DNA of 64,000 bases from Natronolimnobius sp. AArcel1 (GTDB lineage: Archaea > Halobacteriota > Halobacteria > Halobacteriales > Natrialbaceae): assembly GCF_011043775.1 (NCBI RefSeq), contig NZ_JAAKXY010000004.1:434001-498000 (forward strand). The letters are read 5' to 3'. Positions 36,925-64,000 of this stretch are shown here, in pieces. The position numbers were made by a program, and so were the translations under genes. Below the pieces are notes generated by a model. That model saw nothing but the letters and a program-made list of their open reading frames with translations. It was not told the origin of the DNA and did not search any database. Positions within the stretch are counted from its first letter, which is position 1. Every line of letters starts with the position of its first letter.

Positions 36925-36998
36925 GGGCTCGTGGTCTAGCTGGTTATGACGCGGCCTTTACAAGGCCGAGGTCGGTGGTTCGAACCCGCCCGAGCCCA
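36925..36998 (+). tRNA. tRNA-Val (anticodon UAC)
   Basis: The acceptor arms GGGCTCG (36925-36931) and CGAGCCC (36991-36997) pair fully, with discriminator A. The anticodon stem CGGCC/GGCCG closes a seven-base loop TTTACAA giving anticodon TAC. The T-arm has GGTTCGAACCC. No intron is needed. tRNA genes are common integration targets, and AT-rich accessory DNA begins just downstream. Confidence 0.96.
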
Positions 36999-39049: not shown

Positions 39050-39143
39050 GGTAAGACCTCTTCTCGAAGGTGGAGGTCGAATACGTTATATTTTATGGAT
39101 ATTCAATTCAAAAGGGTCGGTGAGAACCGGTGATTTCGCTGGA

Positions 39144-39908
39144 ATGAATAATATCTTTCCCAACGAGGAGTGGGAGCCTGCTCAACCGGCATCGGATACA
39201 GAGTTGTGGCGTTATATCGATTTCACGCAGTTCGTATCCATATTGGAGAATGATGCACTCTGGTTTTCTCGTGCTGCTGGCTTCTTTGACTCATACGAGG
39301 GTGCCCTCCCACCTGGCAAACTGCGAAAGATAGCTAAAGGAGTGTCTGACCGTGTCTCTGACCCAGAGAACTTCGTTCGGGCTTTTTACGATGCATTGCG
39401 GTATTCGACCTATATCAGCTGTTGGCACGAGGCTTCCGAGGAGACTGCTTCGATGTGGCAGGTGTACCAGCAGAAGGGGAAGGAGGTAGCCATCAAAACT
39501 ACTGCTTCCCAGTTCCTATCTGCACTAGACAGTAACTACGATATCGTGAGCGGCCAAGTGGAGTATATTGATTACTCTAACAGCCCAGATATCACAGTAA
39601 ACCGCATCTCCCCATTCTTTTTCAAGCGGGAAAGCTTTGAACCTGAATCGGAGTTTCGAGCAGTCATCTCTAATTTCGAACCACCGGATGGCACTCCAGT
39701 CAATGAGAACTTCGTGGATAAGGTCGCACGAGAGTCCTCGCCAGGAAAGGCAGTTACTGTAGAGTCTTCAGCATTGATACAAGAAGTGTATGTCTCGCCT
39801 GTAGCAGGCGGATGGCTTGAAGCCTTAATAGGCGATGTTCTTGACACATACGGATTAGAAAGCGTCCCCGTTCATCCATCTAGTCTGAATAAGGATCCAT
39901 TCAAATAA
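39144..39908 (+). CDS. DUF2971-like protein
   Basis: A 254-residue soluble protein. Hallmarks resembling DUF2971 are LWRYIDFTQFVSILENDALW, FFDSYEGALP, and ISCWHEASEETASMWQVYQ, followed by YIDYSN and FKRESFEPESEFRAVI. The family occurs in bacterial and archaeal accessory regions, often near defence genes; no activity is established. The ATG at 39144 (MNNIFPNEEW) is used. It is divergent from the 38387/37437 operon. Confidence 0.65.
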   Translation: MNNIFPNEEWEPAQPASDTELWRYIDFTQFVSILENDALWFSRAAGFFDSYEGALPPGKLRKIAKGVSDRVSDPENFVRAFYDALRYSTYISCWHEASEETASMWQVYQQKGKEVAIKTTASQFLSALDSNYDIVSGQVEYIDYSNSPDITVNRISPFFFKRESFEPESEFRAVISNFEPPDGTPVNENFVDKVARESSPGKAVTVESSALIQEVYVSPVAGGWLEALIGDVLDTYGLESVPVHPSSLNKDPFK

Positions 39909-41663: not shown

Positions 41664-41874
41664 ACCCTCACGTTAAAACAGACTTCTAAATAGAGGTTTT
41701 CTGAGACTAAGCACACCTGGGACTTACTTCGACCACACCAACACGATGAAAACCAAGTATCGTACCGCCACATTTCATCGAGAATCAAGGCGGATACCTC
41801 GGGGCCTGACCCTGAGGCAGTTGACATTCAGAAATCCAACTACTTTTGATAGCAGAACCATAATGATTCCTGCA

Positions 41875-44757
41875 ATGACTGAGCCGATACGGATTCTACA
41901 CCTCGACGCTGATAACGGCTACAGAGAGCAAACCTCGGCGCAGTTAGAACAAGCAGATGTGCCAATCAATGTCATCTCGGCTGCGTCTATCAGCCAAGCA
42001 CTTGAAACGCTTCAAAACCAGTCCGTACATGCAATACTCAGCTCAGCACCTCTGATAAGAGAAGAGACCAGTCAAAACTCACTCGACCAAGCACTCCAAC
42101 AGCAACATCGTCAAATTCCTATTTTTCTCTATTCCTCTACGGCCAGCAATCCTAATCAGAATCAGGAACCGCCCAAACTACACACAAACAGCAAGCACCT
42201 CACAAAACCGACAACCCCGGAAGAGTATTCGTTACTATCAAAATGGATCAAGAGTGAAACTGGCACGCAGAACGAGATCCTCTCCCCTTTCAACACAGTC
42301 GAAGGGTTCGCACTTTTAGATGAGACTCTCAAGTACAAAATCATTAATGAGGATCACGCCAGCACCTACGGATACGATGATACAGACGCCCTGCTGGGAA
42401 CAGATTGGTTCAAACACTACGAGAAGAGTGCACGCGAGTCACTCTCAGAAAAGATACGAGAACTTCAACCAGGAGAAAGTTGGTCAAACGAATTCACCCG
42501 GGATCCTCTACCTGAATCCGTCGCCCCACACCGAGTAACAGTAACCCGGCTACAAAACGGCGAGTACGGATGTTTCGTGAAGAACTTGCAAGAGAAAAGA
42601 CTGCTTGAACAAGAGCTAGAACGGAAGGAAATAATAACCGAAAACATTCCAGATATATGTCTCATAGTTAACAATGAAGGGATAGTCACGTACCAAAACC
42701 GTCTATCTGAAAACACATGGGATTACCCACTTCAAGATTTGCGAGGTGAATCTCCCCTCGAATATGTACACCCAGATGATCAAGACGCACTGTTGGCTGA
42801 CTATCAGCACCTACTTTCCAATCCAGGCACTTCTCTCACCTCTGAATACCGGTTTCAAACATCGACCGGGAAATGGCGATGGTTCGAGAACCACGCTATA
42901 AATAAATGCGACAACCCCAGAATCGAAGGAATACTAGTAACTGCTCGGGATATTTCCAAACGGAAGCAACAGGAACAACAGTTGCGTAAAAGCAATGAAC
43001 GACAACGCCTACTTTTCGAAAAGGCACCTGACAGTATCATCATTCACGATCGAGAAGGTAATATTCTGGAAGTGAATTCAAAAGCAGTTGAGCTAACGGG
43101 GTATTCTCGCCAGGAGCTGCTTTCGATGAAGATACAAGATATCGAGGTAGGGTTTACCGAGACACAACTAAAGCAGAACTGGGGTAGAATGTTGGCTGGC
43201 AATATCTTCCAAGCCGAAGGGAAAATCAAACGAGCCAATGATACAACCTGCCCGATTGAAGTCTGGATCAACAAAATCGATATTGATGGGAAAGCCCGTT
43301 ATCTTGCCCACTCAAGAGATATTACAGAACGACGAGAACGAGAAAAAGAACTTGAAAGTGCGAAAAGTCGGCTGTCACTAGCTGTCGATGCCGCGAACGC
43401 AGGTGTCTGGGAATGGAATCTCGAAACAGACGAAATTCTCTGGGATGAGAGCACAGAACGACTATTCGGCATCAAGGACGGATCATTCAGTGGAGAGTAC
43501 GATGAACTATTAGAGTATATACACCCGGAAGATAAGTCAAATTTTGATAGGAAGGTTCAGAGAATAGTTAACGATGGTGGAGAATTCACCATAGGTTTCA
43601 GAGTCAACAATGAAGCAAATGAACAGTTATGGTTAACTGCACGTGGCCGTGTCCTCGCAAGTCCCGACAGCGAATACAAACGTATGATCGGTGTTGTAAT
43701 CGACAATACTGAGCAGAGAAAACAACAGGACCGGTTCGAAGCACTCGTAGAACAGTCTACAGATATCATCTCTATACTTGATGAGAACGGGACATTTCAA
43801 TACCAGAGTCCATCTATCAATGAAATCCTCGGCCATGACCCTGACAGCCTAATAGGTGAAGACGCCTTCGACTACATCCATCCAGACCACCGGGAACGCA
43901 TATGGGACGAATTTAAAACAGCAATCCCGGATCCAGACTCCAACCCGAAGGTGGTCTACAAGTTCAAAGCTGCGGATGGCTCATGGCGCTGGCTCGAATC
44001 CAGAGGCAATAATCAACTTAATAACCCAGCCGTTGGAGGTTTTGTGATAAACACACGCGATATAACACGACAAAAAGAATACGAGAAAGAGCTTGAAGTA
44101 CAACGTGACAATCTGGAGGTTCTTAACGAAGTAGTTAGACACGACATTCGGAACAAATTAGTTCCAATCTCAGGATATACAGATATCTTAGCCGATCGTG
44201 TAGATGACGCTCATGAATCGTATCTTGAATTGATGCAAGCCAGCGTACAGGATGCGATCGAAACGACAGAGATGGCTGCGAAAGTCACCAAAATAACGCT
44301 GCAAGATGAGAACGATCTATTCCCCATTCAAATTCGAGATATTCTTGAGGACGAAGTCGCGGCTGCCGAACAAACCCATGAGGAAGCCGAGATAACTATT
44401 GAACGACCGCTTACCAGTGCGAAGGTCCTGGGTGATCAAATGCTTCCCTCGATCTTCACAAACTTACTCGATAATGCAGTCACACATAATGATGCAGAAA
44501 CACCAAGAATAACGGTCTCTACAAGTGAAACAGAAAGCAAGGTCTCGATTCGCGTTGCGGATAACGGACCAGGGATCACTGACGAGAAACTTGAAAGCGT
44601 GTTCGAGAAGGGTGTCAAGGGCGTTGATAGCGACGGTACCGGTCTCGGTTTGTTCCTTGTCGATACTCTGGTAGAGCGTTATCAGGGTGGTATTTGGATC
44701 GAGAATACAGAAGTTGACGGGACTGTGTTTGTCGTCCAACTTCCGAAAGCTGACTGA
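41875..44757 (+). CDS. Multi-PAS sensor histidine kinase with degenerate receiver
   Basis: A 960-residue soluble kinase. The first 125 residues look like a receiver fold (RILHLDADNGYREQTSAQLE) but the usual phospho-Asp position reads AILSSAPL, so it is likely inactive for phosphotransfer. About five PAS-like units in tandem follow (for example DSIIIHDREGNILEVNSKAV, IISILDENGTFQYQSPSINE), then the dimerisation helix with EVVRHDIRNKL (phospho-His) and an HATPase with LLDNAVTHND, DNGPGIT and GTGLGLFL. The ATG at 41875 is taken; 41863 is an alternative. Convergent with the receiver-fusion gene, 26 bases away. Confidence 0.9.
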   Translation: MTEPIRILHLDADNGYREQTSAQLEQADVPINVISAASISQALETLQNQSVHAILSSAPLIREETSQNSLDQALQQQHRQIPIFLYSSTASNPNQNQEPPKLHTNSKHLTKPTTPEEYSLLSKWIKSETGTQNEILSPFNTVEGFALLDETLKYKIINEDHASTYGYDDTDALLGTDWFKHYEKSARESLSEKIRELQPGESWSNEFTRDPLPESVAPHRVTVTRLQNGEYGCFVKNLQEKRLLEQELERKEIITENIPDICLIVNNEGIVTYQNRLSENTWDYPLQDLRGESPLEYVHPDDQDALLADYQHLLSNPGTSLTSEYRFQTSTGKWRWFENHAINKCDNPRIEGILVTARDISKRKQQEQQLRKSNERQRLLFEKAPDSIIIHDREGNILEVNSKAVELTGYSRQELLSMKIQDIEVGFTETQLKQNWGRMLAGNIFQAEGKIKRANDTTCPIEVWINKIDIDGKARYLAHSRDITERREREKELESAKSRLSLAVDAANAGVWEWNLETDEILWDESTERLFGIKDGSFSGEYDELLEYIHPEDKSNFDRKVQRIVNDGGEFTIGFRVNNEANEQLWLTARGRVLASPDSEYKRMIGVVIDNTEQRKQQDRFEALVEQSTDIISILDENGTFQYQSPSINEILGHDPDSLIGEDAFDYIHPDHRERIWDEFKTAIPDPDSNPKVVYKFKAADGSWRWLESRGNNQLNNPAVGGFVINTRDITRQKEYEKELEVQRDNLEVLNEVVRHDIRNKLVPISGYTDILADRVDDAHESYLELMQASVQDAIETTEMAAKVTKITLQDENDLFPIQIRDILEDEVAAAEQTHEEAEITIERPLTSAKVLGDQMLPSIFTNLLDNAVTHNDAETPRITVSTSETESKVSIRVADNGPGITDEKLESVFEKGVKGVDSDGTGLGLFLVDTLVERYQGGIWIENTEVDGTVFVVQLPKAD

Positions 44758-44783
44758 GGTACTATACAATTTTCCAAATGTTG

Positions 44784-45653
44784 TCACGCCTTTGGGACAA
44801 GTGGATCTAGAGATTGTTGCTCAGACTTTGAGAGACCGAGTCGCTTCAGTCCGTCCAAACAGCACTGATACCCCTCCATTTCCTTTGCAACTTCACCATA
44901 CGCATTGACGAGTGCAGCTTGCTTCGAGCGAATCGATAAGAATTCACGGGACTCAGAAGACAACTCAGAACGGTTAAGAAGCAGCTCCAATCGGCTTTTG
45001 ATTTCTGACTCAGAAACTGGTTTTTGCGCGTAGTCATCCACCTCTAATTCGCAAATGTCGTTATCAGGTTCCAAACTTGAGACTGCCAGGATAAGGGCGT
45101 CTTCATCGAGTTTTTTAATCTCAGACGCAACTTCGTCACCTGAGATGCCTGTTAAATGCCGATCGAGGATAACAACGTCGATTGTTTGGTCGTATTTTGC
45201 GATCGCTTCTTCGCCTGTTCTTACGAACTCGACGGCGTACGAGTCGGACAAATACTCAGATAATATGTCGGCTACCATGCGTTCGTCCTCGACGATCATT
45301 ATCGAGACCTGAGTCTGTTCGTGACGTTCATGCCACCCATTAAGCATATGCAAGGCTGGTAAGAGTCCTCGTCCTTTTTCCGTTAACTCATAGATTGTGA
45401 TACCACTGCCCTCTACCTTCTCAGTCGTTTTGAGCACGCCCATTTCGCATAGGTCACTGAGTCCATCAGACAGCATTTTTGAGGAAATCCCATCAAGGAC
45501 GGCTTCGATCTCGGAGTATCCTGCGCCGTCCAACTCGTCAACTACATAGATAATAATCGGGTGCCATTTGTAGGAGAGTATCTTCGTTGATTGCTTGACT
45601 TGCTCGACCTGGGCTGTCAGGTTGTCTTCCGTTTCGTGGTGAGCCTGAGTCAT
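44784..45653 (-). CDS. HxlR winged helix - receiver - HalX fusion regulator
   Basis: A 289-residue protein with three parts. Residues about 15-105 form an HxlR-type winged helix (KWHPIIIYVVDELDGAG, GISSKMLSDGLSDLCEMGVL). Residues about 115-225 form a receiver (SIMIVEDERMVADILSEYLS) with phospho-Asp in VVILDRHLTG and Lys in AQKPVS. The last 55 are HalX-like helices. A DNA-binding domain before a receiver is unusual; normally output domains follow. The multi-PAS kinase ends 26 bases away on the other strand and is the obvious partner. Confidence 0.85.
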   Translation of the reverse strand: MTQAHHETEDNLTAQVEQVKQSTKILSYKWHPIIIYVVDELDGAGYSEIEAVLDGISSKMLSDGLSDLCEMGVLKTTEKVEGSGITIYELTEKGRGLLPALHMLNGWHERHEQTQVSIMIVEDERMVADILSEYLSDSYAVEFVRTGEEAIAKYDQTIDVVILDRHLTGISGDEVASEIKKLDEDALILAVSSLEPDNDICELEVDDYAQKPVSESEIKSRLELLLNRSELSSESREFLSIRSKQAALVNAYGEVAKEMEGYQCCLDGLKRLGLSKSEQQSLDPLVPKA

Positions 45654-45965
45654 GTGGGTTTATAGTATTGTCATTACTAAGTAGGTGAGCTTTTCTGGGT
45701 GAAAGTCAGGGCTTTCTTGAGTGTCACCTGGCCATTTGTTCAGATATGTTAAACGGGGGAGGGCTTACCATAGCGTACGTTACAACTTCACTTAGTGTTA
45801 GATCGTTCACTTATGATTGGGGTTCAAACCGAGACATAGCGAACCCGCCTGCCTCGAACACGAATCAAAATCGCATTCCAAAGCCAGTCACAAACTCAAC
45901 AGGACAGAGCACTACGCGATTCAATCCACCACGAGCAACCCACCATCAAGGCCCCATCAGGAACA
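45654..45965. other. Intergenic stretch, no gene seen
   Basis: About 310 bases between divergent regulator genes. Bases near 45654-45680 and 45740-45800 are AT-rich and probably promoter DNA. An in-frame read-through of the next gene's other frame exists but has no protein-like features. Confidence 0.45.
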
Positions 45966-46283
45966 ATGGCGCAACCGAACCCAGAACCAGAGGGAAGAAC
46001 ACGAGTACTGATTGCACACCAGGATCTTGTTCAAGCAAAGAAACTCGCAGGTCAACTACCTCGCAATTATGCCGTAACCGCGACAGACACGCCTGGAACA
46101 ATATTTTCTGAAACAGCAAAACATGTTGACGTACTGCTAATCAATTCAGATTTCTTCAACACTCTACCAAACGACATCGTGTGGGGCATAGCGTGTGGAA
46201 CCACTGATTGCAAGGTGATCCTGCTAGGAGAGTCAACGCCCGTGACCGATGCGATCAGAAACGGCTTCGATGACTGCTTATAA
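45966..46283 (+). CDS. Receiver-like protein, short and degenerate
   Basis: A 105-residue protein resembling the first four-fifths of a receiver domain (RTRVLIAHQDLVQAKKLAGQ, then VDVLLINSDFFNTLP, KVILLGESTP). The acidic pocket and phospho-Asp are not clearly conserved (LINSDFF), and the last helix is missing. It is close to the receiver fusion gene, divergent from it. It may be a phosphorylation-independent regulator or a decaying gene; the PATE-like element starts right after its stop. Confidence 0.55.
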   Translation: MAQPNPEPEGRTRVLIAHQDLVQAKKLAGQLPRNYAVTATDTPGTIFSETAKHVDVLLINSDFFNTLPNDIVWGIACGTTDCKVILLGESTPVTDAIRNGFDDCL

Positions 46284-46298
46284 AGCACAAGGAGAATA

Positions 46299-46792
46299 CC
46301 TGCGGCTTCAGCCGCAGGATGAATCCGACAACTCGGAGTCAATCTACGCTGCGATAGCCACACTGAGATTTGACAATCCGTATCTTAAAGTGACAGGCAA
46401 TCCTACGTATAGGTAGGAATCAGGTTGGGAACGGAGCGATTCCGGCCAGTCCTACGATGGCGGCCTGTCCGCCCCAAGCAATGAGACAGTAATCGGAACC
46501 AGTCAGGTGAACGGTCGGTTCCTATAATGAACCGATGCTGTGCCCGACTGCTGTACGCGCCACGGAAAGTAACTCCGAGTCCGTCGAAGTCTGCCGGACT
46601 CCCTGAGGCAAAAACAACTCTGGGAGTCCGAACACGATGGAGGATAGGAGTACCGGGGGCTTGGCACTCCCAGCAGTCCCACCCGCCACAGACCACGAGC
46701 ATCTCCACAGATTCGTACTGTTTGGATGCTCGGTGGGGCTGTTAAACCTGAAATCTCCAACGCTCAGGATTCCTCCGCGTTCACGCGGAGGA
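46299..46792 (+). mobile_element. Palindrome-flanked PATE/IS1341-like non-autonomous element
   Basis: The stretch is bounded by two GC-rich hairpins: CCTGCGGC-ttca-GCCGCAGG (46299-46318) and TCCTCCGCG-ttca-CGCGGAGGA (46771-46792), the second followed by GGATGTCA. Haloarchaeal TnpB-only (IS1341-type) elements and their small PATE derivatives characteristically end with such a hairpin. Only short frames lie between, so no transposase or full TnpB is present; it would need help in trans. Exact outer edges are not determined. Confidence 0.55.
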
Positions 46793-46794
46793 GG

Positions 46795-47100
46795 ATGTCA
46801 ACAAGGCCAATCACGCCTGGGAAAATCGAAGAAACCGTTGAGCAAGTCTGTACTCGGCAGGTGTACGAGTCGGTAATTGATGATCTTTGGCGGGTACTCC
46901 ACACGAAAGCACTTCTCCGAAAGGAACTCAACGATGAGGAAATAGAGAAATCTGATTCGTACCGCGTATTACAGCAACACCAGTCTTCTCTCGAATCCCT
47001 TGCAGACGAACTTGAGAAGGATCTTGAAAAGAAAGACTTCACCGCATTGTTCCGCGACGCAAGCTCTGGTTCTCGACTCGTACGACCCTCAGTTAACTAA
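46795..47100 (+). CDS. Hypothetical protein, start next to element end
   Basis: A 101-residue soluble, highly charged, mostly helical protein (VCTRQVYESVIDDLWRVLHT, LQQHQSSLESLADELEKDLE). No family is recognised. Its ATG at 46795 lies inside the conserved GGATGTCA that follows the right hairpin of the PATE-like element, so the insertion may have replaced the original start and promoter. The next gene begins two bases after its stop. Confidence 0.6.
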   Translation: MSTRPITPGKIEETVEQVCTRQVYESVIDDLWRVLHTKALLRKELNDEEIEKSDSYRVLQQHQSSLESLADELEKDLEKKDFTALFRDASSGSRLVRPSVN

Positions 47101-47102
47101 CT

Positions 47103-47510
47103 ATGGATTCAACATTTACAGACAAGCTTCGTCGAATTAACCAACATTCCCCAGGGGAATCGGGATTACAGGTTTCGAGGACGGATCGCGCCATCGTCCA
47201 GGCACTTCTCAGGAACGAATACCCACTGTGGATGGTTGTCCTGGCATTTTGGGTCGTGGGTGATCTTTTGACGACAACGATCGGGCTTCAGATTCCAGGA
47301 GTCATTGAGGTCGGTCCTGTTGGACGTATTGTGGTAGCTGAATTTGGTGTATTAGGAATGATCTTATTCAAGATTGGGTTCACTAGCCTGGTTTTTGCAA
47401 TTGCAGAACGCATCCCTGAGCCGCATCACGTTGGCGTTCCCATAGGACTGGCGCTTGTTGGTATTGTGGCAACTGCGTGGAATACAGTGGTCATTGCATC
47501 TGCATTCTAG
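47103..47510 (+). CDS. Small membrane protein, DUF5658-like
   Basis: A 135-residue protein with three membrane helices (LWMVVLAFWVVGDLLTTTIG, MILFKIGFTSLVFAIAE, IGLALVGIVATAWNTVVIA). The pattern, with polar WVVGDLLTT in helix 1 and WNTVVI in helix 3, is like haloarchaeal DUF5658 proteins of unknown role. It is tightly coupled to the upstream 101-residue gene. Confidence 0.65.
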   Translation: MDSTFTDKLRRINQHSPGESGLQVSRTDRAIVQALLRNEYPLWMVVLAFWVVGDLLTTTIGLQIPGVIEVGPVGRIVVAEFGVLGMILFKIGFTSLVFAIAERIPEPHHVGVPIGLALVGIVATAWNTVVIASAF

Positions 47511-47635: not shown

Positions 47636-48358
47636 GTGATTCCAACTATGTTAGTAATGGGAGAATCAGGGGAAACCGCGCCTACTAAGGAATCCACTCA
47701 GAACACCAGACTTGCAAACAAAGCAACAGCACCACTCCTCTCTCGGAGATCCACGCTGAAACGAGCTGGTGTATTCACAGCTACCCTCGGATTAGGAGCA
47801 GGCGGGTACTTCGCCTTCTTCGCTGATCAAGCAGCCGCAGCAGAAATCAACGAATTCGAACTCGACGACGTCGAGCTTGACACGGCAGACGGTCAAGTAG
47901 ACGAAGTCACCGTTGAAATCACAGAGTACGAAATCGATTATTCGAATTTCAGCAGCGACGACGGTGAATTCGATGTCACGCTCTGGGGAGAATTTGATGA
48001 AGATGGAGAAGTTGAACTGGATAATGAGACTGTAGAGGTGGATGAGACACCGCACGGAGAGGTAAGTCCTGAAGCGATTGTGGGTGAGACGTACGATCTT
48101 ACTGACGATGATGATTTAGAAGCAGAGGACCCGGTTGTAGAGGCTTCAGAACTGGATGTTGACGAAGGTGAGGAAGAGACGTACGAGTTCACTATCCGGA
48201 CCGAGGTAGAGTATACTGGAGGAGATGAAGACATCTCAGTTAGCGATGAAACGGCTGAGTTCTCGCTCACAGTGGATAACTTCGATGGGGAAGTTGATGT
48301 GACAATTGACGGCGAAACTGGTGCGGAGCCTGTCCACGGTCCTGAAAACGGAGACTAA
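47636..48358 (+). CDS. Tat-exported acidic surface protein 1
   Basis: A 240-residue protein (alternative starts at 47648 and 47657) with a twin-arginine signal SRRSTLKRAGVFTATLGLGA and cleavage likely near QAAAAE. The mature part is all-beta by pattern and very acidic, with segments VTVEITEYEIDYSNFSSDDG, FDVTLWGEF and YEFTIRTEVEY that align in layout with the two neighbouring exported proteins. The GGYFAFFADQ stretch is loosely reminiscent of TasA/SipW-type signals. Function unknown; a surface or biofilm role is inference. Confidence 0.65.
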   Translation: MIPTMLVMGESGETAPTKESTQNTRLANKATAPLLSRRSTLKRAGVFTATLGLGAGGYFAFFADQAAAAEINEFELDDVELDTADGQVDEVTVEITEYEIDYSNFSSDDGEFDVTLWGEFDEDGEVELDNETVEVDETPHGEVSPEAIVGETYDLTDDDDLEAEDPVVEASELDVDEGEEETYEFTIRTEVEYTGGDEDISVSDETAEFSLTVDNFDGEVDVTIDGETGAEPVHGPENGD

Positions 48359-48383
48359 CTTGGGACCCTGATTAGTAGATCAT

Positions 48384-49739
48384 ATGCGTTATTCACGTCG
48401 AGCGTATTTAGGTGGGTTTGGAGCCGTTATGACTGGCGGTATAGTTGCAACCACGATTGGCTCTGACAGTGTAGTCGCTAGTGAAATCAGCACTGAAAGC
48501 GGTGATTTAGACGATGTGTATATTCGAGATGCAGAAGGTGAATTGGACTCTCTCACCGTTACCTTCGATCAATTTGATGTGGTGTGTGAAAACCTGACAC
48601 CGCGAGAAGGCGATCTGGAATTAACCATTAACGCAGAAGCAGGTGGCACAAGTGCAGAACTTTACGAAACGAATCTTGAGCTCACTCAACCACATGAAGA
48701 ATTTTCCTTTGACGAGGTTTTCGAGGAGGAAGAGGATGCAGAACTACACATAACTGATTTTATAAGCCCGGACACGTTCGATGCTGCTGATGATGGTGAC
48801 GTGACTGAAACAGAAGTCACAATCTCTATTGAAATTAAACAGGGTCAGGGGGAGGAGGGCAATAATGTTACAGTATTCTACAAAGATGAATTTACCTTTT
48901 CAGTGTTTGTTGCAAATGTAGATGAAGAGACTTTTGAAGATCCATCTGATGAGCCTTACGAAGTTGACGTTGAAGACTACTCAGAAGTAACCGCTACAAT
49001 TGAAGGTGCAGCAGGAGGTCGAGGTGCAGGATCTGGCATTCTTGGAACGGGTTTACTCGAATCCTCTGGTGGGGATGGGGGGAATGGTGGTTATATCAGG
49101 GCAAGAGCAAACATTAGTCAGATTGACAAACTGAATGTGTGGGTTGGTGAAGGTGGGAAAGCACCTACGGGTGAAGACGATCCTGGCGATCAAACTGATG
49201 GACTATATTCTGGCGGAGCTGGTGGAGACAGTAGGTTTGCTGGAGGCTCTGGAGGCGGGTGTAGCGCGGTGACAACAACTGAAATTGAAGACTCAGAAGA
49301 AGATGAAAATGTATTATTACAAGAGAGCATAGCTATTGCTGATGGTGGTGGGGGCGGAAGTGCAGCGACTGGATTACTTGATTTAGGTCGTTCATCTGGG
49401 GGTGGAGGAGGAGGGCGAAATGGTCAGGGAGGAGATGGTGCATCCGGTTCCAGTAATGACGGAGACCCTGGGGATGGGCCAGTAGGAGGTGAAGAAATTG
49501 GTGGTGCAGGTGGGGATGCACCGACAAGTCTGGTTAGTAGTGGTGATAGCGGATCCGACGGCGGTCAGACACTTGGACAGTTCTCTCCAACAAAAGTTGG
49601 TGAATTAGAGATCGAGGAGCTAGACAGTGAATCGGGCGCAGGAATGGATACAGATGATGTTGAAGATGGTGGGGATGGAAAGAACGCTAAAGTTAGCCTT
49701 CAGCTAGTTGGCAAACCATTTGAACCATTAACAGACTGA
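48384..49739 (+). CDS. Tat-exported surface protein 2 with glycine-rich adhesin-like domain
   Basis: A 451-residue protein with Tat signal SRRAYLGGFGAVMTGGIVAT. Residues about 45-185 form an acidic beta domain like that in its neighbours (SLTVTFDQFDVVCENLTPRE, ETEVTISIEIKQG). From about 195 on there is a glycine-rich domain: EVTATIEGAAGGRGAG, GGYIRARANISQIDKLNVWV, GGAGGDSRFAGGSGGG and repeated GGGGG runs, the layout of glycine-rich domains in phage and bacterial adhesins. It starts 25 bases after protein 1 and is probably cotranscribed. Confidence 0.7.
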   Translation: MRYSRRAYLGGFGAVMTGGIVATTIGSDSVVASEISTESGDLDDVYIRDAEGELDSLTVTFDQFDVVCENLTPREGDLELTINAEAGGTSAELYETNLELTQPHEEFSFDEVFEEEEDAELHITDFISPDTFDAADDGDVTETEVTISIEIKQGQGEEGNNVTVFYKDEFTFSVFVANVDEETFEDPSDEPYEVDVEDYSEVTATIEGAAGGRGAGSGILGTGLLESSGGDGGNGGYIRARANISQIDKLNVWVGEGGKAPTGEDDPGDQTDGLYSGGAGGDSRFAGGSGGGCSAVTTTEIEDSEEDENVLLQESIAIADGGGGGSAATGLLDLGRSSGGGGGGRNGQGGDGASGSSNDGDPGDGPVGGEEIGGAGGDAPTSLVSSGDSGSDGGQTLGQFSPTKVGELEIEELDSESGAGMDTDDVEDGGDGKNAKVSLQLVGKPFEPLTD

Positions 49740-49879
49740 TAGAAGGTCCCAATAGTTTCTATCGGCGTGTAATGTCGGTGCACAACCTTCAGAGATGAGT
49801 ACAAGACGAATGAAAGTGCTTTGCTCCGGCAGTGCAGGAGTAAACACAGACGCACCCGAGTAGTGTGGCGCGGGACACT

Positions 49880-51088
49880 TCACTGGGGATTATTGGTTGG
49901 TGTTCCTCCTGCTGTTCCTTCAATTATTATTTCGGCCGAAGGAGTTGGATCATCATCGCCATCCTCGCCATTGTCGTCATCATCTCCATTTCCGTTCGAA
50001 CTTGATTCTGATTTAGAGCTTAGTAAAAAATTGCTCAGACTTTGAGCATACGAGAGGTCATATTGTTCTGATTCAACTCTGATCTCGATTTCCAGAAGTG
50101 TAACCGTCACATCGTCATCAGATGGTTCGAATTCCCCGAAATCAGACGACACCTCTGAATGATTAGCAAGATCTAATTCCTCACCAGCAAATGTTCCCGA
50201 TAGACTCTCATTTGACTCTTCGCTGGATTCGATCGAAGTTGAACCGATCAACTCCTTCTCATCAGCAAACTCCGGACGAGCAAATACCGAAATAGTGAAC
50301 GTATCCGGATCATCATCACTCACATCATCGAAACCTTCGTACTCAATTTCGAATTCGGTTTCCTCCCCATCAAAATACATCGCAGACAAACCAGTATGAT
50401 CCGTCTCCGCCACAAACCCGTCCCAGAACGTGTCAAAACCAGCTGAGAGACGCTGACCGCGAGTTGCCGTCACTAAAGACGCGTACGTTGCAGTCGAAGT
50501 CAAATCAAACGACTGTGACTCCACGGTAATCTCAAACTCGACCGCAGTGGTTTGCTGATCTTCTCCCTCCTCAGGAGCAAACTCAGCGTAATCGTCTGAC
50601 ACTCCGCTGTGAGCAGCTAAATCGATCGTATTCGAGTCGAACACATCAGCGTCTAAGTCATAGAACAGGGAATCAGACGGTGTGTCTTCAACTCCAAATG
50701 AACCAGACACGAGCGTCTCCGCTTCAGAAGCAAAGTCTGGTTTCACCGCGATAGACACATTAAATTCATCGACATCATCAACTTCCCCGGAATCAAACCC
50801 GGTGTAAAGCACCTGCAAACTCATATCACTCCCACTGATAGTCACTCCCTCCGATTCGGTATCGATTGATCTGACAGTAAACGATGTAGGTAGATCTGTT
50901 ACAGCATACATCGTCGGACTATCATTGGCTCCCACCCTTTGATCTGGTTCATCACCATTTCCAGAGAACAAAATATATCCAAGACCTAGCCCACTGACCG
51001 CACCGACGCCTCCTGTTGCTACTAGGATGCTTCGACGTGATGTGGCCACATCTTTGAGGTCATCAATCGAGTCAAGATCATCAATCAT
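49880..51088 (-). CDS. Tat-type membrane-anchored surface protein 3, two-domain repeat
   Basis: A 402-residue protein. SRRSILVATGGVGAVSGLGL near residue 18 looks like a Tat signal or anchor without a clear cleavage site. Two copies of one acidic beta domain follow (about 60-205 and 215-345): compare FNVSIAVKPDFASEAE with FTISVFARPEFADEKE, and AAHSGVSDDYAEFAPEEGED with ANHSEVSSDFGEFEPSDDDV. An Asp-rich linker and the short end IIIEGTAGGTPTNNPQ come last; this resembles the first strand of the glycine-rich domain in the neighbouring protein, so the gene may be truncated there. Convergent with protein 2. Confidence 0.68.
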   Translation of the reverse strand: MIDDLDSIDDLKDVATSRRSILVATGGVGAVSGLGLGYILFSGNGDEPDQRVGANDSPTMYAVTDLPTSFTVRSIDTESEGVTISGSDMSLQVLYTGFDSGEVDDVDEFNVSIAVKPDFASEAETLVSGSFGVEDTPSDSLFYDLDADVFDSNTIDLAAHSGVSDDYAEFAPEEGEDQQTTAVEFEITVESQSFDLTSTATYASLVTATRGQRLSAGFDTFWDGFVAETDHTGLSAMYFDGEETEFEIEYEGFDDVSDDDPDTFTISVFARPEFADEKELIGSTSIESSEESNESLSGTFAGEELDLANHSEVSSDFGEFEPSDDDVTVTLLEIEIRVESEQYDLSYAQSLSNFLLSSKSESSSNGNGDDDDNGEDGDDDPTPSAEIIIEGTAGGTPTNNPQ

Positions 51089-51268: not shown

Positions 51269-51664
51269 TTAACTACTGGGTAGTTCACCTTCACTTCGAA
51301 TAAACTCGTCAATCAACTCTTGTTCGATATCTTCGACGAACGTCTCACCATCATCAGCCAGTGTTTCCTCACCGTGTTCAATAACCACATCACCATCACC
51401 ATCACCTTCAACAATCTCACCAATCACTGTATCCTCACTATCAAGACCAGCATCATCTACCACGTACGAATCACGCAATACTGGGCCAGACTCTGCTATA
51501 CTATTGTCTATTCCTAGTTGTCCGACAAGCCCGCCGGTCTGAGAATCGCCTTCTACGTCACCAGTCGCGTAAGACTCTACAACCTCTCCACTATCACTAT
51601 TCAACCCGACAAATCCACCAACCATTTCGTCACCAGGCACATCACCAGACTGACCAGGCATTCT
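51269..51664 (-). pseudogene. C-terminal fragment of a GLUG-motif surface protein
   Basis: The readable protein holds one and a half GLUG repeats (GGFVGLNSDSGEVVESYATG, then GGLVGQLG) and an acidic tail. GLUG repeats occur in large secreted adhesins. No start or signal peptide belongs to it: upstream, the frame runs into the last codons of the recombinase gene 51642-52802, which uses another frame. It is therefore a remnant of a longer surface-protein gene cut off at the recombinase end. Confidence 0.65.
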
Positions 51665-52802
51665 GGACTGCATCGGACCGATCCATTTTCTGTTTTCGCT
51701 TTGTTCGCGGATCGTAGTGCTTTTTGAGTACCGGGATCGAAACGTCAAACCGTTCACTTGCGCGAGAAGGGTATAATCCATTACTGAGATGATTCACGAT
51801 CGCTCCCCGACGAATCGCGTGCGGGCAATATGAGTACGGACAAACGTTCAAATCCGGATCACACCCCCCATCACAAGTGATTGGTTTATTTCTTCTTACG
51901 GAATCATAATTTATTTCTGATTCATCAGGTGCCCAGCGGCAACTTGTCGCTTCATAGATCCACCTACGAAGCGTGGATTTAGACGCTCGACCCTGCTTTG
52001 TGGCAAACAGGGGCGAACGACTGTATTCATCAGTTACATCAGGGCGTACGTTATCGATGTACCATTGAATGGCGTCAATGACTCGATCTTTGACGATGAC
52101 GTCTCGTTCACCATCTCCAGGTGTATTATCCTGCACCTCACCGTTTTTCAATCGAGTCCCTGTATCTGGCCGGTGTCTAAGGACAATCGTATTTTCATCC
52201 GATCTAAAATCCTTTACATCGAGTGAGTGAAGATCACCGATCCGAAGGCCACCATTGAAACCAACTTCTATGATAGCATGCATTTTCGATCCGTAGCGCT
52301 GTTCACCAAGCCGTTCGATGATGTGTCGTGCGACTGATTCCGGAATTGCTTCGTCACGTACCGTCGGGTCAAGATTTAATTCGTCTTTATCGAGAACCCT
52401 GTAAACGGCTTCATCACAGTATTGTCGTTTGGATAGCCACCGAAGCCAGCTTCGCACATTTTTTGTATATGTGAGCTGGGTTGCGTCAGCTTCGTGTTTC
52501 TGCTTGACCTCATCCACATACCTATCTACCAGTTCTATTGACAGACCTGATGGAATCGTCACTCCTTGCGCTTTTGAGAAGGCGATGAACTCGGGGATGG
52601 TTCGTTTATATTGTGCACGAGTTGCCGGACTTCGATTCTCTCTCCGTGAGAGATATCGTTCATACAGATCCTCAAGTGTGGGGGAAGACGGCGTTTTGTC
52701 ATCAGACTCTGAAAGGACCTCAACGCCGACGCTATTGAGGATATCCTGAATGGTTTCTGGGTCATCGATTTGCGCTAGGGTTTCTGGGAGTGAGAGGCTC
52801 AT
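51642..52802 (-). CDS. Tyrosine recombinase/integrase, catalytically complete
   Basis: A 386-residue recombinase. The N-terminal core-binding domain (about 40-140) includes YLSRRENRSPATRAQYKRTI. The catalytic domain keeps Arg in GFNGGLRIGDLHSL, the His-x-x-Arg box in CPHAIRRGAIVNHL, and the nucleophile Tyr in VLKKHYDPRTK. A cysteine cluster (CDGGCDPDLNVCPYSYC) before the box is typical of haloarchaeal integrases and may bind zinc. The ATG at 52802 overlaps the stop of the partner gene by four bases. Confidence 0.88.
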   Translation of the reverse strand: MSLSLPETLAQIDDPETIQDILNSVGVEVLSESDDKTPSSPTLEDLYERYLSRRENRSPATRAQYKRTIPEFIAFSKAQGVTIPSGLSIELVDRYVDEVKQKHEADATQLTYTKNVRSWLRWLSKRQYCDEAVYRVLDKDELNLDPTVRDEAIPESVARHIIERLGEQRYGSKMHAIIEVGFNGGLRIGDLHSLDVKDFRSDENTIVLRHRPDTGTRLKNGEVQDNTPGDGERDVIVKDRVIDAIQWYIDNVRPDVTDEYSRSPLFATKQGRASKSTLRRWIYEATSCRWAPDESEINYDSVRRNKPITCDGGCDPDLNVCPYSYCPHAIRRGAIVNHLSNGLYPSRASERFDVSIPVLKKHYDPRTKRKQKMDRSDAVQNAWSVW

Positions 52803-53683
52803 TGTTCGTTGAGAGTTTTCGAGATTCCGGCCCACTGGATATCGCTTGGAAGAATCACTGTCTCCGAATCACTGCCCTGTTCGGATGTTCGGGCTGGTCG
52901 ATCAGGTTCACGGGGCCATAGGGAGAGGTCGCTACTCGCGCGTTTCACAGAACGTCGAAGCGTCGATGATGAGGCTCGACCGTGTGGTGTTGTGAATAAT
53001 GGTTTGTTCTGCTGTTCAGATGAGGTGTCTCGTTCGTGTTCCAGGTATGTGCTTATCGATTCCGCGACGTTGGCTGGTATACTTGCAGTTCGTGTGGTGT
53101 GTATGCCTGTTGAGACTGGAAGGTGCGTCTCCGGAAGATTGAGAGTTACCGTCTTGCTTTCGATGCTGATGTCGTTACAGTTGAGTTCTTGAAGTGGTGC
53201 TGGATTCGATCCTGTGTAGTAGAGGAGTGCAGCATACACGTGCGTTCGCGTGCCGTATTCAGAGCGTTGTAGATAGTTGAGAAAAGCTTCAACGTCTTCC
53301 TCAGAGACGCCGTTTGGACTTTTTTCCTGGAGGAGCGTTCCTGCGAGTTGCATTTTGACCTGAGTGGCCATGTCGGCATCATCGGGGATGTGGTGTGCTA
53401 TGCGTGCCTTCTCGTGGCTTGGATCGGATTTGTGTATAACCGCGAGGAGGTTAGCTAACGTGCAGGCTTGCCCGGTGATAGTTTTGGGTTCGTACCCACG
53501 TTCCAGTTGGTAAGTTGCGTATTCTGCGACGATTTTCGCGGTGAGCTGTGGTGGGTTGTGCTGCTGGTTTATCAGCCAGGATTGGAACGCTAAGGTTGTG
53601 CTTTGATGGGACTGGTATGTGCTAAGTGCTGTGGACGTGGGTATTTGGCTGAGGTAGGTCGAAACCTCTGTTCGAAGTTGCAT
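52799..53683 (-). CDS. Tyrosine recombinase-like protein lacking catalytic residues
   Basis: A 294-residue paralogue of the downstream integrase. The core-binding domain is present (TLAFQSWLINQQHNPPQLTA, NLLAVIHKSDPSHEKAR). The first catalytic Arg region reads YYTGSNPAPLQELNCNDI with no Arg. PLFTTPHGRASSSTLRRSVK matches PLFATKQGRASKSTLRRWIY in the partner, but the protein then ends without the His-x-x-Arg box or Tyr. It may serve as a DNA-binding or architectural partner in a heteromeric recombinase. Translationally coupled to it by a four-base overlap. Confidence 0.8.
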   Translation of the reverse strand: MQLRTEVSTYLSQIPTSTALSTYQSHQSTTLAFQSWLINQQHNPPQLTAKIVAEYATYQLERGYEPKTITGQACTLANLLAVIHKSDPSHEKARIAHHIPDDADMATQVKMQLAGTLLQEKSPNGVSEEDVEAFLNYLQRSEYGTRTHVYAALLYYTGSNPAPLQELNCNDISIESKTVTLNLPETHLPVSTGIHTTRTASIPANVAESISTYLEHERDTSSEQQNKPLFTTPHGRASSSTLRRSVKRASSDLSLWPREPDRPARTSEQGSDSETVILPSDIQWAGISKTLNEQ

Positions 53684-56016: not shown

Positions 56017-56480
56017 CTACTACTCATAAGCACAAAGACTTCGCATCTGTGTATGACTCTCTATCCGAAATTCCTGATGACAAAAGGCTTGATACCTTTG
56101 AGATGGAATTTAGAGGCAGGGACGTAGTGAATGAATATCTGTCATATAAATACGGTGATGGGGACTACCACGAGAAATTCGTAAATCAGGTCGATAGGGC
56201 ATTTCAAACTTGGAAAGAAGTCTGTAAACAGAATGATTGTCATCCAGCATTGGCTGCACCGCACGTGATAAATGAATGGTGTATATCACTCGTCAAGAAT
56301 GCAAAAAGAACCACTGTGAAAGACAACTACCTATCACATATAAATCGTTTCTATAGGTACATGAAATGGCATATCGATTATCCTCATTGCTATAACCCTG
56401 TTCAATTTGCGGTTCGTGACTACGAAGTTGCTAAATCTGTCTGGAATTGCCGCGTTGGGGGTGAGAAGGATGGTGAATGA
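56013..56480 (+). CDS. Recombinase core-binding-domain-only protein
   Basis: A 155-residue protein that looks like the N-terminal SAM-like domain of a tyrosine recombinase (FQTWKEVCKQNDCHPALAAP, VKDNYLSHINRFYRYMKWHI) without any catalytic domain. Its end overlaps the following recombinase start by 11 bases. It is either an accessory DNA-binding subunit or a split-off domain; the conserved coupling argues for use rather than decay. Confidence 0.68.
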   Translation: MTTTHKHKDFASVYDSLSEIPDDKRLDTFEMEFRGRDVVNEYLSYKYGDGDYHEKFVNQVDRAFQTWKEVCKQNDCHPALAAPHVINEWCISLVKNAKRTTVKDNYLSHINRFYRYMKWHIDYPHCYNPVQFAVRDYEVAKSVWNCRVGGEKDGE

Positions 56481-57621
56481 TGAGGACGTAGTTGATCAAC
56501 TATCGGCGTTCGACGAAATAGGTGATGAATTCAATCAGGATGTGGATTCATTGAAGAAGTACGATCAGCAGTTCAAGCAGATTGATCAGGATCCTGTTGA
56601 AATTTACTGTGAGGTTGTGGTTTCACAAATGAACAACACTGACAAGGCTAATAGAAGGAAAATTTCGAGAATAGAGGAGTACTTGGAACATATGGAGCAA
56701 TATGAAAGGCATCCAGCTTGTGCAAACTCTCACCATATCTCTCAGTTTATAAACAAAGAGATTAGAAAAGGACACCAACCACATACGATCAACCTTAAAA
56801 TTTCTGAGATTGAAAGCATGTTTGACTATTGGTCGAACCACCCTAAGATGCCGCACCCACCGGAGGGCGAAAATAAGTATAATCCAGCTACAATAGCTCG
56901 CGGATTCAAGAAGGATGCAATTCAGAGAAATTCAAAAAGCATCCAAAAGACCCCTCCTCGGATACCAATTGAAGAATTATCCCACCGAATCAGGCAAATA
57001 AAGAACACACTTCACAGGGCGTTCATCGTTTGCCAGTTGAAACACGGATCAAGAGCCGGGCAGACCTCTAATTTACAGTTGCGGGATATCCAGCTTAATC
57101 ATGACGGGTTGAACAAACTGTACCCTGAACTTGGTACGCACCCTCGATTGAGGGATGTCAAAGAGGACGCGATCTATTATGCACCATTCCAAGAGCGTGA
57201 AGGTGGAAAATCTAAACGACCGATCGTTTTACCAATTGATAATGAATTGAATCGGTTGCTTGTAAAATATCTTCGCCTACGTCCGCCAGTTGAGGAACCC
57301 TGGCTCTTTCTCAATCCCGCCACATGTGGGAAGATAACTACTGGGTACGCAAATGAACGATTTTGGAAGAACCACTTTCAACCAGAATATGCTGAAACAG
57401 AACTGTACCGTGGAGTGACATCACACTTCGCACGGCACTATTTCAGCACGTACTGGAAGACTCAAATAGACACCAACGAAGAATACTTGAAATATATGAG
57501 GGGAGATAAGAATGGGGATTTAGATGGAGGGTCGCCAGACATTATGTATACATATATACACACACATTTCCCGGATGTGAAAGATGAATATCTTAGGAAT
57601 ATTTACAAGTTTGGGATCTGA
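56470..57621 (+). CDS. Tyrosine recombinase/integrase, catalytically complete
   Basis: A 383-residue recombinase. The N-terminal domain includes NRRKISRIEEYLEHMEQYER and INLKISEIESMFDYWSNHP. The catalytic domain has Arg in LKHGSRAGQTSNLQLRDI, the His-x-x-Arg-His box in TSHFARHYFSTYW, and a candidate Tyr nucleophile in DIMYTYIHTHFPD. It is the last gene of an overlapping cassette starting at 55350. Not closely similar to the 51642-52802 recombinase, so the region holds two separate recombinase lineages. Confidence 0.85.
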   Translation: MVNDEDVVDQLSAFDEIGDEFNQDVDSLKKYDQQFKQIDQDPVEIYCEVVVSQMNNTDKANRRKISRIEEYLEHMEQYERHPACANSHHISQFINKEIRKGHQPHTINLKISEIESMFDYWSNHPKMPHPPEGENKYNPATIARGFKKDAIQRNSKSIQKTPPRIPIEELSHRIRQIKNTLHRAFIVCQLKHGSRAGQTSNLQLRDIQLNHDGLNKLYPELGTHPRLRDVKEDAIYYAPFQEREGGKSKRPIVLPIDNELNRLLVKYLRLRPPVEEPWLFLNPATCGKITTGYANERFWKNHFQPEYAETELYRGVTSHFARHYFSTYWKTQIDTNEEYLKYMRGDKNGDLDGGSPDIMYTYIHTHFPDVKDEYLRNIYKFGI

Positions 57622-62589: not shown

Positions 62590-64000
62590 ATGACATCTTC
62601 ATCGGATCTCCAAGACGCTCTCCAGACGATTGACGACCGAATTTCTGATGAGATGAGTGAGCGCGACGTGGAGAATATCTTCCTTGAATCTGGGTTTTAC
62701 GATGTCCTGGGCTATGAGGGTACGGGAACCGACATCCGAAGTGAATTCACGTTGCCCGACAACCGTCGGCCGGACTATATCACACTGGATACCAACGAGT
62801 CTGTAACTGGCGTTTTTGAATTCAAGAAACCGAACCGAGATCTCAGTGGACACGAGGATCAACTCTTCCACTACATGGACGAGCTCCGGGCGAAATATGG
62901 GGTACTGACGAATGGCGTAGAACTTCGTGTATACACCGCTGAGCAAAACTTCGTCATTCCAGCGAAAGCCCTCAGCACGATTACTGACTCCGAAGCAAGA
63001 AATCTCTCTAGCATACTCCGGAAGCGCGAATTTGACCTCACGAATCCCGACCATGTAAACCGCTTCCTCTCTGATTTAGATCCGATTCCGCTCGACAAAC
63101 AGGCTAAACTTGGCCAGGAACACTTCTTCGATACCTTCCGGCTAGAGAAAGGCAGTCCGTTCGCTGACCTTGTGACGGCTATGATGGATCTTCTCCGGGA
63201 ACTCCGAGATGAACGCGAAGAGAAGTTCGTTAAAGGTGCGTACGACTTCTGGGAAGCCACGTACGCAAGCGAACCCGAAGAAGTCCCCTCTTCATGGCAG
63301 CCGTTCATCAACGGAAAACAGTCCCTCCGTGATTTTATGTTCTGCTTGGAAAGCGGGCACGCGCTCCTCGCCCGCCTGCTTTTAGCGAAAGCCACCGAAG
63401 ACCACGATTTCTTCGCTGGCACCGGATACAACGGGATGGATGACTACTTCCGCGGCCTCCAAGGATTCGGGATGAGCATCAACTTAGACGCCTTCCCAGT
63501 TGCCGCAGACAACCTTATCGACGATATGCAGGACCAACTTGTCGAAGGCCTATTCCAGGACGATATCTTTGTCTGGTGGACAGACGGCTACACCGAACAG
63601 CTATCTCGTGGGCACCATACTGGCGCAAATCAGTTCGAAGCTGTCGCGCGCGGAACTGGAGAAGTCGAGCGTATCAGTGAAGCCACTCGTGACCAGTTTA
63701 GTCGCGCCGTCGCAGAAGTGTTCTTCAACGTTCTCCGATTCGATTTCAGCGACGTCCAAGGCGACTTGCTCGGTGATCTCTACCAGCGGTACTTCGACCC
63801 GGAAACCCGGAAAGCGCTGGGTGAATTCTACACCCCGCAACCGGTCATCGATTACATAATGGACGGGGTCGGATACGATCGTGGCGTGTCGAATGAGCGC
63901 CTCATTGACCCGTCCTGCGGATCTGGAACGTTCCTTGTCGAGGGAGTCAAACGCTACGTCGAAGATGTCGAACGGTACAACGATAATCCGGACTGGGAAG
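62590..64000 (+). CDS. Type IIG-like restriction endonuclease-methyltransferase, 3' end cut by window
   Basis: The frame is open from ATG 62590 to the window edge (470 residues visible). Near the N-terminus, PDY (Asp62) and GVFEFKKPN (Glu77, Lys79) form a PD-(D/E)xK nuclease pattern like HsdR N-terminal domains. A helical linker follows, then an N6-adenine methyltransferase start with GEFYTPQPVIDYIMD near 411 and SAM motif LIDPSCGSGTFLVEG near 438. Nuclease and methyltransferase in one chain indicate type IIG-like restriction-modification. The target-recognition part would lie beyond the edge. A catalytic NPPY motif is not yet reached. Confidence 0.85.
   Translation, partial: MTSSSDLQDALQTIDDRISDEMSERDVENIFLESGFYDVLGYEGTGTDIRSEFTLPDNRRPDYITLDTNESVTGVFEFKKPNRDLSGHEDQLFHYMDELRAKYGVLTNGVELRVYTAEQNFVIPAKALSTITDSEARNLSSILRKREFDLTNPDHVNRFLSDLDPIPLDKQAKLGQEHFFDTFRLEKGSPFADLVTAMMDLLRELRDEREEKFVKGAYDFWEATYASEPEEVPSSWQPFINGKQSLRDFMFCLESGHALLARLLLAKATEDHDFFAGTGYNGMDDYFRGLQGFGMSINLDAFPVAADNLIDDMQDQLVEGLFQDDIFVWWTDGYTEQLSRGHHTGANQFEAVARGTGEVERISEATRDQFSRAVAEVFFNVLRFDFSDVQGDLLGDLYQRYFDPETRKALGEFYTPQPVIDYIMDGVGYDRGVSNERLIDPSCGSGTFLVEGVKRYVEDVERYNDNPDWE

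Follow-up and report, generated by a model that had tools for sequence, protein, structure and literature searches.

Genes and features of the cluster

Three neighbouring open reading frames, named P1, P2 and P3 here, occupy positions 47636-51088 of the window, by which we mean the whole stretch of 64,000 nucleotides analysed from Natronolimnobius sp. AArcel1 (contig NZ_JAAKXY010000004.1, positions 434,001 to 498,000). Their positions, and the Tat-type signal that the original prediction had placed on each of them, are borne out. The types A and B are those of the related operons described below, and a10d is a profile of the domain that the three proteins share.

47636..48358, + strand: P1 (A-type), with a Tat signal and AAA site, one domain and a C-terminal strand tail
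47843..48289, + strand: domain copy in P1 (a10d profile, E 1e-11)
48384..49739, + strand: P2, with a Tat signal, one domain copy and a glycine-rich C-terminal half
48480..48929, + strand: domain copy in P2 (a10d profile, E 2e-7)
48972..49736, + strand: glycine-rich domain of P2 with an ALK/LTK-like pattern (27% Gly; PF12810 E 0.04, below cut-off)
49880..51088, - strand: P3 (B-type), with a Tat-type N-terminus, two tandem domains, a low-complexity linker and a C-terminal strand tail
50456..50920, - strand: P3 domain copy 1 (profile matches, AlphaFold model)
50006..50452, - strand: P3 domain copy 2 (profile matches, AlphaFold model)
49883..49936, - strand: C-terminal strand motif of P3, AEIIIEGTAGGTPTNNPQ, matching VGGTIVLEGxAxNEP of the B homologues (alignment)

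The twin-arginine motifs (LSRRSTLK in P1, YSRRAYLG in P2 and TSRRSILV in P3) are each followed by a hydrophobic stretch, and the Tat models of Pfam and NCBIfam give sub-threshold matches only. Class III (prepilin) signals of the type IV pilin kind were not found; Tat-type n-regions, RR motifs and AxA sites are present instead. Export by Tat is ordinary in haloarchaea, where 39-55% of secreted proteins have been assigned to this pathway (PMC2945643).

A shared domain in four copies

One domain is common to the three neighbouring ORFs, once in P1, once in P2 and twice in P3. These copy numbers, which had been proposed beforehand, were recovered with a10d, a profile made from 16 family members of other genomes after removal of their signal peptides and containing no window protein. 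Run without filters on the 318 window ORFs, a10d matches P1 (E 1e-11), residues 32-182 of P2 (E 2e-7) and two separate stretches of P3 (E 5e-7, a value for the whole protein), and finds no fourth ORF among the 318 (next-best E 0.27), while the reversed window ORFs give nothing below E 0.5. With default settings, across all loci read, it matches 202 of 6085 ORFs and none of the 6085 reversed ones. Because of these window-free and reversed-ORF results, the four copies are, as judged from profiles, real and not a by-product of acidic composition. The description of the domain as acidic adds little to this; the shared domain stands, but its acidity is not distinctive within a haloarchaeon.

The two copies in P3, previously called clearly related, indeed match each other profile against profile at E 7e-28, and P1 matches the N-terminal domain of P2 by BLAST at E 2e-5 (shuffle z 6.9; none of 400 shuffles scored as high). 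The sequences of P1, P2 and P3 have strongly diverged from one another, and the tie of P1 and P2 to P3 comes mainly by way of relatives, with weak scores in direct pairwise comparison. A profile of P1, the P2 N-domain and four relatives finds the two copies in P3 at E 7e-12 and 2e-9, and an A-only profile finds P3 (7e-14) and P1 (1.5e-4) in the window with HMMER filters off and gives no match there with default filters. The P1 copy matches the A family by hhalign (E 1.8e-5) over the first 45 residues of the copy. P1 is thus, on sequence grounds, a member of the domain family.

An intact operon in relatives

Full-length homologues of P3 with 32-35% identity are found in four other genomes of the family, namely those of Natrinema limicola JCM 13563, Natrialba aegyptia, Natrialba taiwanensis and Natronolimnohabitans sp. 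A-GB9, and each of these genomes has an adjacent A gene, as the proposed co-occurrence check had called for; P1 aligns with the A genes of all four. In the four relatives (Natrialbaceae; three genera) the gene order A-B-C-D is kept on a single strand:

gene A, 230-300 aa: one domain
gene B, about 390 aa: two domains, equivalent to P3
gene C, 600-810 aa: Tat signal, domain with GLUG repeats
gene D, 148-158 aa: S26 signal peptidase-like, at the end of the operon

D matches archaeal signal peptidase I (TIGR02228) at E 5e-11, with 42.8 bits against a curated cut-off of 51.85, PF10502 with 22.6 bits against 22.9, and the SipW model at E 2.7e-7; an SMEPT motif and an N-terminal hydrophobic stretch were recognized by eye. 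The earlier statement that no export machinery adjoins the cluster therefore holds for the window and fails for the relatives, since a signal-peptidase-like gene ends the operon in all four. C proteins start with the shared domain's first half (E 2e-12 to 4e-11 or better) and one of them ends with its second half, so that the GLUG repeats seem, from these alignments, to be inserted within the shared domain. This apparent position inside the domain sets C apart from other GLUG-repeat proteins (PF07581), with which the C proteins and a remnant in the window share the repeats themselves.

A difference in cleavage sites runs through the operon. In seven of the eight A and C proteins encoded by the relatives, the twin arginine has an AFA or TFA site 28 residues further on, and in the eighth an AFA is found at a similar place after a second RR, the first RR lying further upstream. 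The corresponding cleavage-type sites are AAA in P1 and VVA in P2. An AxA-type site is missing in four of the five B proteins, the fifth having a weak TLA, and none is clear in P3. With AxA sites present in A and C and mostly lacking in B, it is B that may serve as membrane anchor, held by an uncleaved N-terminus. The family proteins checked showed neither a lipobox nor a C-terminal membrane helix nor any other anchor, which leaves B as the one candidate for retention at the surface.

The window version and its apparent island

The cluster in the window is a rearranged form of this operon, with D missing and with P2 and a GLUG remnant present beside integrase genes; P1 and P2 face P3 and the remnant. 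The surrounding features are as follows:

36925..36998, + strand: tRNA-Val, at the left edge of a low-GC stretch
51269..51641, - strand: 3′ remnant of a GLUG-repeat gene (PF07581 E 8e-7), its frame running into the end of the integrase ORF
51642..52835, - strand: tyrosine recombinase, XerC/XerA-like (profile matches)
52799..53683, - strand: second tyrosine recombinase-like ORF (profile matches)
56407-57621, + strand: third phage-integrase-like ORF, in the low-GC stretch (PF00589 E 0.002)

The remnant at 51269-51641, which the original prediction does not mention, is a probable relic of C, to judge by its repeats; a mechanical ORF at 51269-51781 overlaps the integrase ORF in another frame. D is absent from the window, and two signal-peptidase-like places occur elsewhere in the same genome, both on another contig. 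The window copy may be incomplete because D is missing and the GLUG gene is broken.

That the cluster lies on an island is supported. The GC content is 0.48 from 37 kb to the window end and 0.59 before, the drop falling at the tRNA-Val, and three integrase-like ORFs are present, but no att site in the form of a direct repeat of the tRNA-Val 3′ end was found in the window beyond 13-base chance matches. In the relatives, the GC content of the operon and that of its surroundings are at most 7 points apart, and so it is the window copy that looks acquired.

Spread of the domain and exchange of modules

The domain itself is widespread across haloarchaeal genomes and is not island-specific; the family is mostly not on islands. 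With a broad profile, A10, matches were obtained in 121 of 392 Halobacteriales genomes and in 53 of 95 genera, the whole domain being less widely spread than the 121 genomes because some of the weaker matches span just the signal and the first strands; a hand count from the list gives about 80 genomes with near full-length matches. In a phylum sample of 295 genomes, 16 have a match, all in Halobacteriales. No model of this domain in Pfam-A or NCBIfam was hit by any member scanned, and no description of it was found in the open-access literature. The profile thus gives shape to a large set of exported proteins of haloarchaea, so far unclassified, which is present in 53 of the 95 sampled genera. 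B-family members gave no match in viral contigs and plasmids.

Adjacent pairs of family genes recur in many genomes, and many other genomes have a single family gene with no partner, from which it follows that a multi-protein assembly cannot be general. A second type of partner occurs at four loci (L093, L097, L098 and L099), where the gene after the family member encodes a small protein that has a single N-terminal membrane stretch and a region either of low complexity or rich in Thr/Pro. A member lies beside an RtcB-like gene, recognized by eye, in many genomes of genus g33 in the Halobacteriales family f5 (L085, L087, L088, L090, L091 and L111).

The C-terminal modules carried by the domain include glycine-rich and GLUG modules, unclassified beta-rich modules and Thr-rich stalks, and they are exchanged among the domain proteins. 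On plasmid unnamed3 of Halostagnicola larsenii XH-48, a single-domain protein (WP_157231443.1) is encoded beside one that joins the domain to a glycine-rich part (WP_157231444.1), both annotated as hypothetical. At a locus of another genome (L059) the domain is joined to a different, unclassified C-terminal module, and in a further halophile family (L146-L151) pairs are formed by one protein that joins a single domain to an unclassified beta-rich module and one that joins a single domain to a Thr-rich stalk. Full-length P2 is absent from all others of the 125 family genomes.

The glycine-rich, adhesin-like part that had been noticed in one protein is upheld as the C-terminal half of P2. Like the ALK/LTK domain and the phage adhesins S16 gp38 and Pam3 gp24, whose glycine-rich domains are held to bind receptors (PMC9608196), it alternates strands and poly-Gly. 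It differs from them in that PF12810 stays below cut-off (14.3 bits against a curated 24.5), tblastn found no match in phages and no fold is predicted (AlphaFold pLDDT below 50). It had no match among PDB sequences either.

Predicted fold and known families

The AlphaFold model of P3 (5 sequences; pLDDT 61, pTM 0.62) has two beta-sandwiches of the same strand order, and that of the P2 N-domain (16 sequences; pLDDT mostly about 60-90 over residues 70-190) repeats this strand order together with a short helix. The comparison of structures that had been suggested as a check thus agrees with the profiles for both P3 copies and the P2 domain. The Foldseek matches of the P3 model are generic Ig/FnIII-like chains (transglutaminase 2, RbmA, CfaB) with E about 1e-5 and low TM-scores; a fold search with the P2 model gave no match below E 0.03, and the A and B profiles found nothing relevant among PDB chain sequences. 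We regard the domain, with moderate confidence, as an Ig-like beta-sandwich. The most relevant structural neighbour of P3 is RbmA, a biofilm scaffold of Vibrio cholerae, which likewise has two tandem Ig/FnIII-like domains (match E 1e-5); with a TM-score of 0.32-0.37 on the RbmA side and 8-9% identity, the likeness is likely one of fold analogy.

TasA/camelysin was considered on account of the adjacent signal peptidase and of a weak match of P1 to PF12389 (E 0.025; 14.9 bits against a cut-off of 22.5), which P2 and P3 do not match, and the fold search gave it no support: neither TasA nor thread subunits are among the 50 PDB matches listed for the P3 model, which are Ig/FnIII-like chains instead. 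The TasA/camelysin/SipW system of Bacillus likewise has exported beta-sandwich proteins beside a type I signal peptidase, but its signals are of the Sec type whereas those here are Tat signals and the PDB matches here are Ig-like. Archaeal threads (Saci_0406) and bundling pili are also surface beta-proteins cleaved by signal peptidase I with no known assembly machinery (PMC9715654). They differ in being crenarchaeal and Sec-exported, with an N-terminal donor strand, and the proteins studied here have no relevant PDB sequence match. The DUF4097 toastrack (PF13349) is matched by P1 with 25.3 bits, over the cut-off of 22.9, yet by no scanned A homologue; the match is probably fortuitous, P1 being a beta protein of acidic composition.

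A proposed modular cell-surface system and its alternatives

The computed results, namely the common domain and how widely it occurs, the operon, the swapping of modules and the difference in cleavage sites between A/C and B, can be brought together in a modular cell-surface system, in which an exported Ig-like scaffold displays exchangeable binding modules. We hold this reading tentatively, at slightly short of an even chance. Each protein of the cluster would be folded before Tat carries it out of the cell. A type I signal peptidase, which would be the product of gene D in the intact operon, would then cut P1, P2 and the relatives' A and C proteins at the AxA site. P3/B would stay membrane-held by its uncleaved N-terminus as a two-domain base, and the shared Ig-like domain would act as a connector or scaffold unit gathering the proteins at the surface. 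Binding would fall to the extra modules, that is, the glycine-rich half of P2, the GLUG repeats of C and the other beta-rich modules elsewhere. We infer that Tat is used in vivo, that B is the anchor, that the domains assemble with one another and that binding and surface adhesion take place. The moderate quality of the P3 model and PDB matches that are generic for Ig-like folds count against this system. Surface adhesion, raised in the original prediction, is the best single reading of the cluster, though a putative one.

The proteins may instead be independent secreted binding proteins, for instance polysaccharide-binding ones, with the domain as a common Ig-like spacer beside the signal peptide and the clustering due to gene duplication. 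The lone family gene found in most family genomes, the divergence of P1, P2 and P3 and the weak Pfam hints of a lectin or CBM-like kind in some family members would fit this account, which we consider somewhat unlikely in view of the A-B-C-D operon that four species of three genera have kept together with a signal-peptidase-like gene of its own, the recurrence of adjacent family-gene pairs and the cleavage site that A and C keep and B lacks. A more specific form of surface structure, a haloarchaea-specific non-pilin fibre or adhesive complex made of an unrecognised Ig-like domain, with A/P1 as Tat-exported shaft, B/P3 as membrane base, P2/C as exchangeable tip and a dedicated signal peptidase for maturation, is unlikely. 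Less likely still is a self-assembling fibre whose shaft, A, would be joined by donor-strand complementation through the C-terminal strand (VGGTIVLEGxAxNE), with B as base and C/P2 as tip. It would account for the free C-terminal strand conserved in A and B, the tail GG conserved across the superfamily, the dedicated signal peptidase, as in SipW-TasA operons, and the pairs of a single-domain protein and a tip-like partner. No missing strand or groove is visible at the quality of the P3 model, however, TasA and thread subunits are not among the PDB matches listed and P1 fits PF12389 poorly (E 0.025); the fibre form is less likely than the surface-adhesion reading.

A secreted competition or anti-viral factor, in which a constant export domain would carry C-terminal modules that differ between proteins and either affect nearby haloarchaea or keep viruses from adsorbing, would suit the island site beside integrases and candidate defence genes as well as the receptor binding by glycine-rich domains of phage adhesins (PMC9608196, PMC9229481). 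We regard it as very improbable: no toxin, nuclease or peptidase domain was found in any family member scanned, no immunity-like gene was seen and the family lies mostly off islands.

The compact operon with its putative signal peptidase, present in culturable species, makes it testable how haloarchaea form surface structures and adhere without type IV pili, and Tat export of folded proteins would distinguish such a system from Sec-exported fibres.

Other genes of the window

Just upstream of the cluster, at 41746-47510, lie genes for a PAS histidine kinase, an HxlR-response-regulator fusion, a HalX-domain protein and a DUF5658 membrane protein, which are possible regulators of the cluster. 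The ORF at 39120-39908 (+) matches the candidate defence family PDC-S31 (E 2e-12), and that at 62590-64000 (+) combines an HsdR N-terminus with an N6-methylase as a fused restriction-modification protein that continues past the window end.
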